Part shown: positions 6,552-13,096 of the stretch, in pieces | Position numbering within the stretch: the first letter of the stretch is position 1 | How the letters are laid out: each line of letters opens with the position of its first letter | DNA from: Streptomyces chromofuscus | Lineage (GTDB): Bacteria > Actinomycetota > Actinomycetes > Streptomycetales > Streptomycetaceae | Reading direction: 5' to 3' | NCBI RefSeq assembly: GCF_015160875.1 | Contig: NZ_CP063374.1 | Location: 3,847,501-3,911,500, forward strand | DNA length: 64,000 bases | The notes under the pieces: model-generated | Databases searched by the model: none | What the model was told of the DNA's origin: nothing | What the model saw: only the letters and a program-made list of their open reading frames with translations | Position numbers and translations under genes: made by a program

Positions 6552-6768
6552 CGGTGGGCGTGGGCGCCAGGCGCCCACGCCCGGCCCGCCCGAACCGTGC
6601 CCACGGGGGCCTGCTGTCGCCCGCCTCGCACGACTGAGCACTAGCACTGGCTGACGACGGGCCTCCCCGGACGGGTGGATGGTCGGTACGACCACCTCCT
6701 GAACGAAAGCCAATGTGGCAACCTGGCCCCAGTTCGGGACTGTTGGCAGGCGGCGGGGGCTTTCCGCG

Positions 6769-8805
6769 ATGGGCGTTGACGGGCGGGACGAGTCACTCGG
6801 TGACGAGGGCGGCGGGGCCGACGGCCCGGTCGCACCCCAGGTGCCGGCACAGCGCGACCGGCGGGAGGACGGCGTCCTGCCGCCGCCGATCGAGCTGCCG
6901 CCGTCCGACGCCGAGCTGGTCGGCCGGATGCGCGCGGGCGACGACACGGCCTACGAGGAGCTGTACCGCCGCCACGCGGAGGCCGTACGCCGGTACGCGC
7001 GCACATGCTGCCGCGATCCGCACACCGCCGACGACCTCACCGCCGAGGTCTTCGCCCGCGTCCTGCAGGCGGTTCGCGGCGGCCACGGCCCCGAGCACGC
7101 CGTACGCGCCTATCTGCTCACCACGGTCCGGCGTGTGGCCGCAAGCTGGACGACCTCGACCAGGCGCGAGCAACTGGTCGACGACTTCGCGGTGTTCGCG
7201 GCCCAGGCCGCCCGCGCGTCGGAGGTGTCGAACACCGACGCTCTCGACCTGGGCGCGGACGTGCGCGCCATGCACGCGGCCGAGCAGTCCCTGGCGATGC
7301 GGGCGTTCCGCTCGCTGCCGGAGCGCTGGCAGGCCGTGCTGTGGCACACCGAGGTGGAGGACGAGTCGCCCAGCGAGGTCGCCACGCTGTTCGGGCTCGA
7401 CGCCAACGGCACGCGCGTGCTCGCCAGTCGCGCCCGCGAGGGCCTGAGGCAGGCGTATCTCCAGGCCCACGTCAGCGCCGCGCTCACCAGCGACGAGGAG
7501 TGCGCCCGCTACGCCGACCAGTTGGGCACGTACGCGCGCGGCAGGCTGCGCACGCGGGCCGAGCGGGGGCTGCGCAAGCACTTGGAGGAATGTGCGCGGT
7601 GCCGGCTGGCCGCCGGCCAGATCGAGGACCTCGCGAGCAGCATCCCCGCGGTCGTGCCGGTTGCGGTCGTCGGCTGGTTCGGGGCGGCCGGGTACGCCAA
7701 GGCGGTGGGGATCCTCGCGGGCGGCACGGGCGGCGCGGGAGCCGGGGCGGCGGGCGCGGCGGGCGCGACCTCGGCGACGGGCGGCTCGGCAGCGGCAGGC
7801 GGGGCGACGGCGGGTGCTTCAGCGGGCAGCGGTGCGGCGGCAGGCGGGGCGGCGGGCGCGGCGGGCGCGACCTCGGCGACGGGCGGCTCGGCGGCGGCAG
7901 GCGGCTCGGCAGGGGCGGCAGCGGGCGGCACGGCGGCAGGCGGCTCGGCCGGTGGGGCGGGCGCGGGCGGCGGTGGCGCGATGGCCTCGGAAGGGCTCGG
8001 CGCGCCGGTGAAGGCGGGTCTCGCGGCCGGTGTGGTGGCCACGGCGATCGCGGTCGTGGCCATCGCCCTGGCCGGCGACGACCAGCCGGCCGAGGACCGG
8101 AAGCCGTCGGCCAAGCCCCCCGCGTCGGCCCCGGCCGCCCAGCCGGAACCGCCCACCCCCACCCCGTCGCGACCGGACCCGCAGCCACCTCTCCCGTCCC
8201 CCGTCGTCCCGGCGGCGGACCGGACCCCGACGCCCGCCCCGTCACCGCCCGGGAGCCCGGCCCCCGCACCCGCCCCGAAGCCGCGGCCGACCCCGACCAC
8301 CGCACCGCCGGCCACGCCCACGCCGGCCCCCACGCAGCCCCCGGCACCGACCCCCACCCCTGCTCCGACGCCCGCCTCGTACCTGCTCGACGAGCTCTCC
8401 TACGACGTCACGGGCGACGGCAACGCGCCCGAACTGCGACTGAGCGCGAGCAGCTGGGTCTGGCCGCGCCACGGCCTGCCGATCGGCGGGACGACGTACG
8501 CGCGCGGGGTCAGCGTCCACGCCCACTCGTCCGTCACCGTCGACCTCAACCGCCCGTGCGCGTCGTACGACGCGCTGGTAGGGATCGACGACTCGACGCT
8601 GGGCCTGGGCAGGGTGTACTTCTCCGTCTGGGCCGACGGCGCCAGGCTCTGGAAGTCCGACCTCGTCAGGGGCGGGGACGCGGCGACACCGGTGCACGTG
8701 GACCTGACCGGGCGCAGGACGGTGCGCCTGGTCGTGGAGCCGCTCGCTCCCCTGGACCACGTGGCCGTGGCTGACTGGGCGGAGTCGGAGTTCAGGTGCG
8801 TCTGA
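6769..8805 (+). CDS. ECF sigma factor fused to zinc-finger, membrane segment and NPCBM domain
   Basis: A fusion of about 678 residues. The N-terminal ECF sigma core has sigma-2 (YEELYRRHAEAVRRYARTC) and sigma-4 (ALRSLPERWQAVLWHTEVEDESPSEVATLFGL-like) regions. An anti-sigma-like zinc finger follows (HLEECARC: H-x3-C-x2-C), then a long Ala/Gly/Ser/Thr low-complexity stretch and one membrane helix (LAAGVVATAIAVVAIALAG). A Pro/Thr-rich linker ends in an NPCBM-type carbohydrate-binding domain. ECF factors with such built-in sensory tails are known from actinobacteria (I recall the ECF53-type group). The cell-wall-sensing model is inference. ATG at 6769 is favoured over 6715, which lacks a good binding site. 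It follows the TetR gene. Confidence 0.88.
   Translation: MGVDGRDESLGDEGGGADGPVAPQVPAQRDRREDGVLPPPIELPPSDAELVGRMRAGDDTAYEELYRRHAEAVRRYARTCCRDPHTADDLTAEVFARVLQAVRGGHGPEHAVRAYLLTTVRRVAASWTTSTRREQLVDDFAVFAAQAARASEVSNTDALDLGADVRAMHAAEQSLAMRAFRSLPERWQAVLWHTEVEDESPSEVATLFGLDANGTRVLASRAREGLRQAYLQAHVSAALTSDEECARYADQLGTYARGRLRTRAERGLRKHLEECARCRLAAGQIEDLASSIPAVVPVAVVGWFGAAGYAKAVGILAGGTGGAGAGAAGAAGATSATGGSAAAGGATAGASAGSGAAAGGAAGAAGATSATGGSAAAGGSAGAAAGGTAAGGSAGGAGAGGGGAMASEGLGAPVKAGLAAGVVATAIAVVAIALAGDDQPAEDRKPSAKPPASAPAAQPEPPTPTPSRPDPQPPLPSPVVPAADRTPTPAPSPPGSPAPAPAPKPRPTPTTAPPATPTPAPTQPPAPTPTPAPTPASYLLDELSYDVTGDGNAPELRLSASSWVWPRHGLPIGGTTYARGVSVHAHSSVTVDLNRPCASYDALVGIDDSTLGLGRVYFSVWADGARLWKSDLVRGGDAATPVHVDLTGRRTVRLVVEPLAPLDHVAVADWAESEFRCV
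7744..7892. repeat. internal direct repeat in sigma-fusion gene
   Basis: A 47-bp GC-rich unit at 7744-7790 recurs identically at 7846-7892, 102 bp apart and in frame. It encodes the Gly/Ala/Ser/Thr-rich linker before the membrane helix. Such repeats are prone to length change between strains. Confidence 0.75.
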
Positions 8806-8841: not shown

Positions 8842-10926
8842 CTACCCGCCGGACGCGAGCGCCCCTCGACGCGGTGTGATGCCCGCGGGCACCGCACGCG
8901 CGCGTGCGGGTGTCCCCGTCCAGCACGTGCCCCGCCGGGCCAGCAGCCGTCGCAGCCACAGCTCCAGGGACACCAGGTCCGCCAGGCCGTCCAGCGGCAG
9001 CGGCTCGCCCTGGGCCGCCGCGCGCAGGGCCTTGCGCACGACCCGGGCCTCCACCAGGCCCGCCTCCGCCAGCAGGGGCGTGTCGAACAGCGCCATCAGC
9101 GAGTCGACCGCCACCCGCAGGCCGGCCCGCGCGGCGGCGGCGGCCGGTACGTGGGAGGGAGCGCCCCAGCCGGGCGGGAGGTCGGTGATGCCGGCGCCCT
9201 GCAGGACCGTGCGCAGGATCGCCGCTCGCGCGCCGGGCTTGACCCGGAGGGCCTCGGGCAGGGCACGGCAGGCCCGTACGACCTGGTTGTCGAGGAACGG
9301 CGCGTGCAGGCGCTGGAAGCGGATCTCGGCGGCCTGTTCCAGCACGCGGACGTCCGCCGCCGTACGGGCGAGCGCGGCCCGCGCGCGGAAGTCGCCCGGC
9401 CGCTGACCGGGTCCGAGCCCGGAGCGATGTGTGGCCCCCTGCAAGCGAATCGATACTTCAGCCAGTGCCTCCCCCGTCAGCCAGCGCGCCGCCGGTCCCG
9501 GTCCGGCCCAGGTCAGCGCCGCGAGCGAGGCACCGACCGCGCCCCCGGGTTCCTCGAAGCGCTTCTGCAGCAGCCGCTCGGCGAGGCTCTCCAGGCCCGA
9601 CCCGTACGGCATGCGGGCCAGGCGCCGGGCCGCCGCGTACACGCGCGCGGGGACCAGTACGGACCCGTCGGCCTTGGCGAGGGCGGCCACCGGGCGGACC
9701 AGGTGGCGTCTTTGCCGGTCCATCAGCAGGTCGGCGAGGCGGGCGGGGTGGGCGTCCAGCACCTGACGGGCGCCGTAGCCGGTGAGGTGGTCCGCGCTGC
9801 CGGAGGCGAGCCTGGCACGGTGCCGGACTGCGGTGACCAGGCTGGGGCCGGGTTCGTCGGTCAGCGGGCCGTCGAGGGTGGCGTACGGCAGGGTCTCCTC
9901 GCCGCCCGCCACCACCACGTGGTGGAAGCGCGGGTTGGCGGCCAGCACGCCCGCCCGCTCCAGCTCGGCCTCCCGGCCGCCCACCGCCAGATCGTTGAAG
10001 GTGACCGCCAGCAGCCGCTCCCCCGCGCCCGTGCCGTGTCCCAGCACGGTGCCCGGCATCCCCGGCAGCCCGGCCGCCAGCAGCGCCAGCGTTCCCGAGG
10101 CGGGCCCGCCGGACAGGTCCGCCCCGATGCCGGGCACCGGCATCCCGCGCGCGGCACGGCGTTCGGCGGGGCCCATGCCCGGGACGGGCCCGGGGTCGAT
10201 GTCGGCTCCGGGGACGTGTCGGGGGGCGGCGAGGCGGGCCCGGACGGCGTCGACCAGGGCGTCGCGGACGGCGTCGAGCGCGCGGTCGGGGTCGGCGGGC
10301 GGGGCGGCGACAGCGAGGGAGGCGACCGGATCGTACCCGGCGACCTCACGCGCCCCGGCGCGCAGGATGAGGGCATGCCCCGGCGGAATGCGCCGCACGC
10401 CGTCGTACGGGGTGGAGTCGTGCAGCGCGGCGGGGACGTCGGGGGCGGCCAGCAGCGCGGCGAGGTGCCCGAAGTCGAGGTTGGCCTCGATGAGGTCGGC
10501 CAGCGGCAGCGCGGCGGTCGCGTAGGCGGTGCCGCCGGCCCAGGGGGTGTGGAACACCGGTCTGGCGCCCGCCAGATCGCCGCAGACGGTGATGCGCCGG
10601 CCGACCTGGACGACCGCCGTGTAGCTGCCGGGCCAGGCCGTCAGGTGCCGAAGTGCCCCTCCGCGTGCGGTGAACAGCCCCAGGCGCAGTTCCTCGTCGG
10701 TGGCGCCGCAGGTGCCGAGGACCGCGATCCGGGTCTGGGCGTCGGCCGTGACGAGTCGGACCTCGTCGGGGCGCCAGTCGCCGACCGCCCACAGGGGATC
10801 CGGGTCGCCCCACAGGAGTTGGGAGCCGACGGGGTGCAGGGTCTCGCCGTCGTAGCCGGTCGCGCCCGCCGAGCCGATCTCGGCGGCTCCCGCGGCGGTG
10901 CTGCTCCACCCCACCAACCACCGCAT
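8842..10926 (-). CDS. orphan asparagine-synthase / lasso-cyclase-like protein
   Basis: A protein of about 694 residues with asparagine-synthetase B architecture. The N-terminal Ntn-type glutaminase-like half starts MRWLVG and so lacks the catalytic Cys2. The C-terminal ATP-pyrophosphatase-like half has a degenerate P-loop (SGGPASG instead of SGGxDSS) and a later SADHLTGYGARQ motif. Proteins of this family that lack Cys2 include lasso-peptide cyclases, but no precursor peptide, RiPP-recognition element or leader peptidase lies nearby. ATG at 10926 has GTGGAGG five bases upstream; the longer start at 10980 has none. It is divergent from the sporulation-associated regulator gene. The biochemical role is unknown. 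Confidence 0.75.
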   Translation of the reverse strand: MRWLVGWSSTAAGAAEIGSAGATGYDGETLHPVGSQLLWGDPDPLWAVGDWRPDEVRLVTADAQTRIAVLGTCGATDEELRLGLFTARGGALRHLTAWPGSYTAVVQVGRRITVCGDLAGARPVFHTPWAGGTAYATAALPLADLIEANLDFGHLAALLAAPDVPAALHDSTPYDGVRRIPPGHALILRAGAREVAGYDPVASLAVAAPPADPDRALDAVRDALVDAVRARLAAPRHVPGADIDPGPVPGMGPAERRAARGMPVPGIGADLSGGPASGTLALLAAGLPGMPGTVLGHGTGAGERLLAVTFNDLAVGGREAELERAGVLAANPRFHHVVVAGGEETLPYATLDGPLTDEPGPSLVTAVRHRARLASGSADHLTGYGARQVLDAHPARLADLLMDRQRRHLVRPVAALAKADGSVLVPARVYAAARRLARMPYGSGLESLAERLLQKRFEEPGGAVGASLAALTWAGPGPAARWLTGEALAEVSIRLQGATHRSGLGPGQRPGDFRARAALARTAADVRVLEQAAEIRFQRLHAPFLDNQVVRACRALPEALRVKPGARAAILRTVLQGAGITDLPPGWGAPSHVPAAAAARAGLRVAVDSLMALFDTPLLAEAGLVEARVVRKALRAAAQGEPLPLDGLADLVSLELWLRRLLARRGTCWTGTPARARAVPAGITPRRGALASGG

Positions 10927-11671
10927 CGACGCCTCCACAGGCTGTGGACAACCAGTGCACCGTACGAACCGGTTCACCATGCTGCCACGAAGAACGCGCC
11001 GCAGAGCGGCGGCGGTGCCGCTTGTGATCCCTCGAATGCGCCCCGCGCACTGCCTCGCGCCACCACGAGATACCCCGGAGATACCCCGCGAGCCGCCCGG
11101 CGACGCCCCGCGGAGCGCCCCAACAGCGGCTTGCCGCAGGGCAACTGCGACGCGAATGCGCCCTCGATACGCCCCCCGTCGACCCCCAACGCGCCCTCAA
11201 ACTCCGTGGTGGACGCGGGAATCACGCGCACGGAGCAGGGTCGCTTTTCGGCCAAAACGATTCCGGGCAAGTGCACGTGCATACGTTTCGTGCACGCTCT
11301 GTACAGGCTCTGCGCACCGCTCTGTCGGCGCACGGTCCGGGAGACGGGTTCGCCTCCCGGACCGGTCCGCCGCCCGCGGGGATTGAGGCGGCGGTATCCC
11401 CCAGCCCACTGGTCCAGTACAGCGGGCCGACCCACGCAAGAGCCATGGAACCGCTCCCGAGATGGCCGGAGTAGAGCGCACGGGCGGGCGCACGGCCACA
11501 CACCGGGAGCACGCCACAACTGTGCGTACCGGGACCGTACTTCCGTACGGACCACAATCCCGCCATCCGGAACAATGCCCCTTAACGCTTGGGATGCGGC
11601 GAACTACGCTGGGTTTACGAATGCCGCATGGTTATGCCAGTGCGGCAGCCGTCTGTGTCGAGGGGTGGCGC
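10927..11671. other. 745-bp intergenic region between divergent genes
   Basis: No gene is supported; open frames here lack binding sites and family similarity. I searched both strands for a lasso-type precursor and saw none that convinced me. Visible structure includes a tandem GAGATACCCC-like repeat (about 11067-11086) and an 8-bp palindrome CCGTACGG at 11543-11550. A candidate promoter for the right-hand gene is listed separately. Confidence 0.5.
11582..11610 (+). promoter_or_regulatory. candidate promoter of sporulation-associated gene
   Basis: TTAACG (11582-11587) and TACGCT (11605-11610) are separated by 17 bp, resembling a vegetative -35/-10 pair. Transcription would start near 11617, just before an in-frame ATG at 11621. 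Either a leaderless start at 11621 or a 55-base leader before 11672 is therefore possible. Confidence 0.4.
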
Positions 11672-13096
11672 ATGTCCAGGGAGCAACGCGGGCCGAACGA
11701 AAAGCTCGGCGCCGTTCTCGCCCTCGCGGGAATCAGCAACGCCGGACTCGCGCGGCGCGTCAACGACCTCGGCGCCCAACGCGGGTTGACGCTTCGCTAC
11801 GACAAGACGTCGGTGGCGCGCTGGGTGTCGAAGGGCATGGTGCCGCAGGGTGCCGCGCCGCACCTCATCGCGGCCGCGATCGGCCAGAAGCTGGGCCGCC
11901 CGGTGCCGCTGCACGAGATCGGCCTGGCGGACGCGGACCCCGCACCGGAGGTCGGCCTCGCCTTCCCCCGGGACGTCGGCCAGGCGGTACGGTCGGCGAC
12001 GGAGCTGTACCGCCTCGACCTCGCCGGCCGACGGGCCGGTTCCGGCGGCATCTGGCAGTCGCTCGCCGGGTCGTTCGCGGTGAGCGCGTACGCCACGCCC
12101 GCCTCACGGTGGCTGATAACCCCGGCCGACAGCTCGGTCGCGCGCGAGGTGAACCCGGCGGAAGGTTCCGGCGCACCGGTCAGAGTCGGCCACAGCGACG
12201 TGCAGAAGCTGCGGGAGGCCGCGGAGGACGCCCGGCGCTGGGACTCCAAGTACGGCGGCGGCGACTGGCGTTCGTCGATGGTGCCGGAGTGCCTGCGGGT
12301 GGAGGCGGCGCCGCTGCTGCTCGGTTCCTACTCCGACGAGGTCGGCCGGGCCCTGTTCGGCGCGTCCGCCGAACTCACCCGGCTCGCCGGGTGGATGGCG
12401 TTCGACACGGGCCAGCAGGAGGCCGCGCAGCGGTACTACATCCAGGCACTGCGCCTGGCCCGGGCCGCCGCGGACGTCCCCCTCGGGGGCTACGTGCTGG
12501 CGACGATGTCGCTCCAGGCGACCTACCGCGGCTTCGGCGACGAGGGGGTCGACCTCGCCCAGGCCGCCCTGGAGCGCAACCGGGGGCTGGCCACGGCCCG
12601 CACCATGAGCTTCTTCCGTCTCGTCGAAGCACGGGCGCACGCGCGCGCGGGTGACGCCCAGGCGGCCGGGGCGGCCCTGAAGGCGGCCGAGGGCTGGCTG
12701 GAGCGGTCCCGCGACGGCGACAACGATCCGTCCTGGCTGGGTTTCTACTCGTACGACCGTTTCGCCGCCGACGCCGCCGAGTGTTACCGGGACCTGAAGG
12801 CGCCGCGGCAGGTGCGGCGGTTCACCGAGCAGGCGCTGTCGAAGCCGACGGAGGAGTTCGTCCGCTCGCACGGGCTGCGGCTCGTCGTGTCCGCCGTCGC
12901 CGAACTGGAGTCCGGGAACCTGGACGCGGCGTGCGAGCAGGGAGTGCGGGCGGTGGAGGTGGCCGGGCGCATATCGTCCGCGCGGACCACGGAGTACGTG
13001 AGGGACCTGCTGCACCGGCTGGAGCCGTACGGCGACGAGCCGCGCGTGGTGGAGCTGCGGGAGCGGGCCCGGCCACTGCTGATGGCCCCGGCGTAG
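11672..13096 (+). CDS. sporulation-associated TPR regulator (NsdA-like)
   Basis: A soluble protein of about 474 residues. The N-terminal helix-turn-helix-like region ([22 protein letters not shown] through [12 protein letters not shown]) is followed by an extended helical C-terminal part that looks like tetratricopeptide repeats ([30 protein letters not shown]). This matches the Streptomyces family annotated sporulation-associated or NsdA-like, from memory. Such proteins influence differentiation and antibiotic production. ATG at 11672 follows GAGGGGTGG. An alternative start at 11621 would fit a leaderless transcript and add 17 residues. It is divergent from the asparagine-synthase-like gene. 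Confidence 0.82.

Follow-up and report, generated by a model that had tools for sequence, protein, structure and literature searches.

A conserved, probable pseudoenzyme of lasso-cyclase descent encoded beside an NsdA-family regulator gene in Streptomycetaceae

The gene at positions 8842–10926 (minus strand) of the window, i.e., of the whole 64,000-nucleotide stretch of DNA that was analysed, encodes a 694-aa protein of asparagine-synthase fold in which three catalytic positions have all been lost, whereas the fold has been kept throughout its family, as have about 50 further family positions. Its status as a pseudoenzyme is thus well supported at the sequence level. The protein descends from the macrolactam cyclases of lasso-peptide clusters, it is under purifying selection, and its gene has a fixed divergent partner that encodes a regulator of the NsdA type. 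We tentatively prefer to read it as a domesticated lasso cyclase turned pseudoenzyme, which would now bind the NsdA-type regulator, or the ligand of that regulator, to tune development.

The window covers 3.85–3.91 Mb of a 7.48-Mb single-contig genome. Among named records, the closest matches come from Streptomyces sp. TRM70350 (98% identity) and S. spinoverrucosus (96%); the best 80 are without exception from Streptomyces. The open reading frame singled out in the earlier note proved to be real, with correct coordinates and strand. The start codon at 10926 is backed by a conserved ribosome-binding site, GTGGAGGC, and by the MRWLVGW N-terminus found in the orthologues. The protein is formed by an Ntn-like half (residues ~1–200) and a synthetase-like half (~263–690). 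It matches the Pfam profile Asn_synthase (PF00733) at 30.7 bits, the cut-off being 21. A phmmer search with the window protein alone gave no match among solved structures. The AlphaFold2 model (pLDDT 86.7, pTM 0.90) predicts an intact fold, for which Foldseek returned TsnB9, beta-lactam synthetase, AsnB, and CarA. The best structural match is the hydroxyamidotransferase TsnB9 (7YLZ; E 2.7e-13, TM by target 0.62). Beta-lactam synthetase (1JGT/1MB9) and carbapenam synthetase CarA (1Q15) have the fold in common with the window protein (Foldseek E 1e-11 to 1e-9) and have likewise lost the Ntn nucleophile.

The lost residues were located with a profile built from intact relatives, with which beta-lactam synthetase, AsnB, and TsnB9 were aligned; such a profile was needed to reach the solved structures by sequence. 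In beta-lactam synthetase, D253 and D351 are Mg ligands and K443 is the catalytic Lys. This enzyme retains all three, whereas the window protein has none of them: in the profile alignment they fall on A276, R387, and a Lys-less stretch, the assignment of the Lys lying in a gapped part. The first is placed in a degenerate PP-loop, SGGPASG (residues 272–278; 10093–10113, minus strand), where TsnB9 has an intact LSGGLDS. The second is found in GYGAR (9766–9780, minus), in which Arg387 replaces the second Mg-binding Asp of GxGGD. The third stretch, LPPGWGAPSH (9151–9180, minus), occupies the place where intact relatives carry RRxKG. Moreover, residue 2 is Arg, and the orthologues begin with MRW, so that the N-terminal catalytic Cys that defines asparagine synthetase B and the class II glutamine amidotransferases is absent. 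The earlier note had reported both the missing Cys2 and the change of SGGxDSS into SGGPASG, and it was right on the two counts; the losses at GxGGD and RRxKG come in addition. An Asp does stand just before the loop, at residue 270, and it was considered as a shifted catalytic residue; however, it is no substitute for the loop Asp, since intact relatives have it as well (DLSGGLDS).

The same losses are found throughout the orthologous loci. The loop site is Ala in 178 of 181 loci by pattern, plus two by eye, and the second Asp site is Arg or Lys in 175 of 181, plus three by eye, the remainder being frame-broken; as these loci are related to each other, the counts do not represent independent events. 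Of the positions that 85% or more of the intact relatives have in common, only six have been lost, among them D276, D387, and K592, in a clade where about 50 further family positions are retained. Deprived of the two Mg ligands and of the Lys, the 694-aa protein is very unlikely to carry out adenylation, and we infer a lack of catalytic activity, even if PP-loop proteins without the Asp might still bind some nucleotide. All this goes together with clear conservation. A homologue is present in 148 of 150 sampled Streptomycetaceae genomes, covering all 17 genera sampled, a count that takes in the weaker matches in genera g15 and g18, which are early-branching orthologues. Identity among homologues within the genus Streptomyces is 65–90%, and the Nei–Gojobori dN/dS ratio of 0.08–0.32 indicates purifying selection.

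Regarding ancestry, a tree obtained by a quick method with SH-aLRT supports places the syntenic orthologues in one clade (support 99). Within it, the dead clade (100) has as its sister group the orthologues of g15 (L157–159) and g18 (L154–156), also with a support of 100. Those of g15 have SGGRDS, GYGGD, and the Lys all present, while those of g18 keep both Asp and carry Arg for the Lys, which reads as an independent, partial loss. Next outward in the tree are the cyclases of complete lasso clusters (L038, L040, L163) that comprise precursor, RRE, B protein, and often a methyltransferase, so descent is shared with lasso cyclases. In one of these clusters (L040, 4570–4967) two different short candidate precursor genes, of 49 and 50 aa, stand in tandem before one intact cyclase gene. 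Neither in g15 nor in g18 did the locus show a precursor, RRE, or B gene in the part in view; therefore, the cyclase gene was probably already orphaned before its chemistry was lost. A wider search at class level yielded only intact relatives among those read, e.g., G295/L296, which adjoins an RRE gene.

The window protein shares with the albusnodin/ikarugamycin (NF033561) and lasso C proteins the fold, the Cys-less MRW-type N-terminus, and the motif HAPFLDNxVV, whose FLDN is retained as a structural motif at 9286–9297 (minus strand, from the alignment with relatives). Its sequence similarity to the cyclases of complete lasso clusters is roughly 30–44%. It differs from them in lacking the Asp, Asp, and Lys, in having no linked precursor, RRE, or B protein, and in its scores, which stay below the cut-offs both for NF033561, the nearest NCBIfam model (218.9 bits vs. 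300), and for the lasso cyclase model NF033535 (18.6 vs. 525).

The partner gene is located at 11672–13096 on the plus strand, with its likely start at an ATG near 11672. It encodes an HTH-TPR regulator of the NsdA/NsdB family (NF053720, 440 bits), of the type of SCO4114, and it bears out the earlier statement that the pseudo-cyclase gene sits back-to-back with a sporulation regulator gene. The likeness to SCO4114, a "sporulation-associated protein", belongs to this divergent neighbour and not to the pseudo-cyclase. The divergent gene is present in all 180 loci with enough sequence, at a distance of 506–1329 bp (median 719). Besides, g15 and g18 have kept it while their other neighbours differ, and it is the only neighbour conserved in every lineage. 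The description of the cyclase gene as an orphan is thus correct in genome terms but not in evolution, in which it has a fixed partner gene. By comparison, the convergent gene for an ECF52 sigma factor with NPCBM domain (6715–8805, plus strand; SCO4117 type, PMC5826349) is convergent in 119 loci and was not found beside the orthologues in g15 and g18.

NsdA-like genes also adjoin some intact lasso cyclases (L037, L038, L040, L301), and in L038, L040, and L301 these HTH-TPR genes are divergent from intact albusnodin-type lasso clusters. This suggests that the pairing was inherited from a lasso cluster that encoded a TPR regulator of its own, and that TPR regulators are recurrent in the control of lasso clusters. 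Alternatively, the pairing could simply reflect the conserved gene order of a core region. To our knowledge, the NsdA-family regulators are a large and mostly unstudied family, and SCO4114 itself has been little studied. In genome G000, about 13 matches to this family exceed the curated cut-off. The expression of SCO4114 is AdpA-dependent in Streptomyces (PMC4021200, PMC2936110).

Taking these observations together, the following course of events may be proposed. An albusnodin-type lasso macrolactam cyclase would have been encoded beside an NsdA-type (HTH plus TPR) regulator, and the genes for the precursor, RRE, and protease would then have been lost. Both Mg-binding Asp and the catalytic Lys would have disappeared in the ancestor that Streptomyces shares with most of the other Streptomycetaceae, leaving a dead cyclase no longer able to adenylate a carboxylate, with its fold and large cavity retained. 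The cavity of a lasso cyclase holds a peptide, according to an AlphaFold model of McjC (PMC11420955). The present role would be one of binding, either to the divergently encoded NsdA-type regulator or to a ligand sensed by it, be it a peptide or an anion; in this way the action of the regulator would be adjusted in aerial growth and sporulation. Within this account, the ancestry, the triple loss, the selection, and the fixed pairing with the regulator gene come from the data above, whereas inactivity, physical contact, and a role in development are inferred. We think that binding to the NsdA-type TPR protein or its ligand is the most economical idea. Of the "developmental pseudo-enzyme" suggested in the earlier note, the second half is well supported by the triple loss and by a fold kept under purifying selection across the family; the "developmental" half is no more than suggested by the genomic context, namely the NsdA-family, SCO4114-type gene and the ECF52 sigma gene. 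A more far-reaching version seems to us rather improbable. In it, the core developmental machinery of Streptomycetaceae would have taken up an entire lasso system and shed the peptide with its processing enzymes, while the dead cyclase would have turned into a ligand-binding co-regulator of an HTH-TPR transcription factor, its former Mg-ATP site being remodelled into an Arg/His anion sensor.

The main competitor is a dead, conserved protein with some other partner, acting as a scaffold or in a replication-tied control through a DnaA-box-like site; we consider this possible, though somewhat less likely than the role with the NsdA-type regulator. The catalytic losses hold whoever the partner is, and the upstream region speaks for the replication link. 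At 10932–10951 (minus strand), overlapping the ribosome-binding site, TTGTCCACAGCCTGTGGAGG includes a 15-bp palindrome that holds a perfect DnaA-box-like TTGTCCACA. In 134 of 181 loci, a perfect box is located no more than 45 nt ahead of the ATG; in the further 855 nt upstream it does not occur at all. The palindrome around it has five sites in the genome, one of which is oriC, between dnaA and dnaN (L305); the intact g15/g18 orthologues lack it. Against another partner counts the fact that the NsdA-type gene is the sole neighbour kept in every lineage. A second upstream element, CGTGGCAGCATG (10978–10989, minus strand), is conserved in 158 of 181 loci, as is CRTGGCAGCATG, which has only two copies in the whole genome; a private promoter or operator is possible for the CGTGGCAGCATG element.

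It is also conceivable, if rather unlikely, that the pocket has been repurposed, the former Mg-ATP site being now a metal-free anion site that senses a nucleotide or phosphate ligand, or supporting a different reaction. The residues that are invariant specifically in the dead clade include Arg372, Arg387, His393, Arg396, and Arg567, which would make up this site, together with D379 and D391, and the SGG of the loop is retained in Streptomyces. However, the loop varies to SYG in genus g27, which is unusual for a phosphate site.

The suggestion of the earlier note that the protein might be a cyclase acting in trans on an unlinked precursor peptide is, in our opinion, very doubtful. In its favour, the closest named model is that of the albusnodin/ikarugamycin macrolactam cyclases (219 bits), but this score is under the family cut-off of 300 bits, and both Asp and the Lys are absent. 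Moreover, the only lasso protease and RRE of the genome lie 3.5 Mb away with their own cyclase. The genome gives a single B-protein match and a single PqqD-type RRE match, both at 310.7–311.4 kb, where a short lasso-like precursor and the one further asparagine-synthase-type gene of the genome adjoin them. As the earlier note had stated, no precursor, recognition element, or protease was found linked to the pseudo-cyclase gene. As possible linked precursors, the 700-bp divergent region and the surroundings of the intact g15 orthologues offered only non-conserved chance ORFs. The distant locus is a complete lasso locus in its own right (L054, genome 305000–319000; 5680–8576, minus strand); it encodes a precursor of 35 aa, MAYERPTLTKVGDFQKVTGLAGTGSPDLLGGHSLL, along with a cyclase, an RRE, and a B protein. 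The weakest alternative, a decaying pseudogene on its way to being lost, could appeal to the frame breaks in a few loci (L017, L023, L032, L162, L166), some of which may stem from errors in the sequencing of GC-rich DNA, but for the family as a whole it is refuted by the selection measure, and the near-universal presence and within-genus identity also speak against it.

Pseudoenzymes are well known among kinases and proteases. In open-licence papers, we found none on the pseudo-cyclase gene, nor any that deals with a pseudo asparagine synthetase or a pseudo lasso cyclase. In S. coelicolor, the gene is placed between SCO4114 and SCO4117 and is probably SCO4116; SCO4115 gave no match, and SCO4116 appears only as an unaffected neighbour of SCO4117. 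In the present case, a probable pseudoenzyme from the asparagine-synthase/lasso-cyclase superfamily belongs to the core genes of the bacterial family that has been studied most intensively for antibiotic production. Since early-branching genera still have intact orthologues in synteny, a natural before/after pair is available, and how a biosynthetic enzyme becomes a regulator can be tested directly in S. coelicolor or S. venezuelae.
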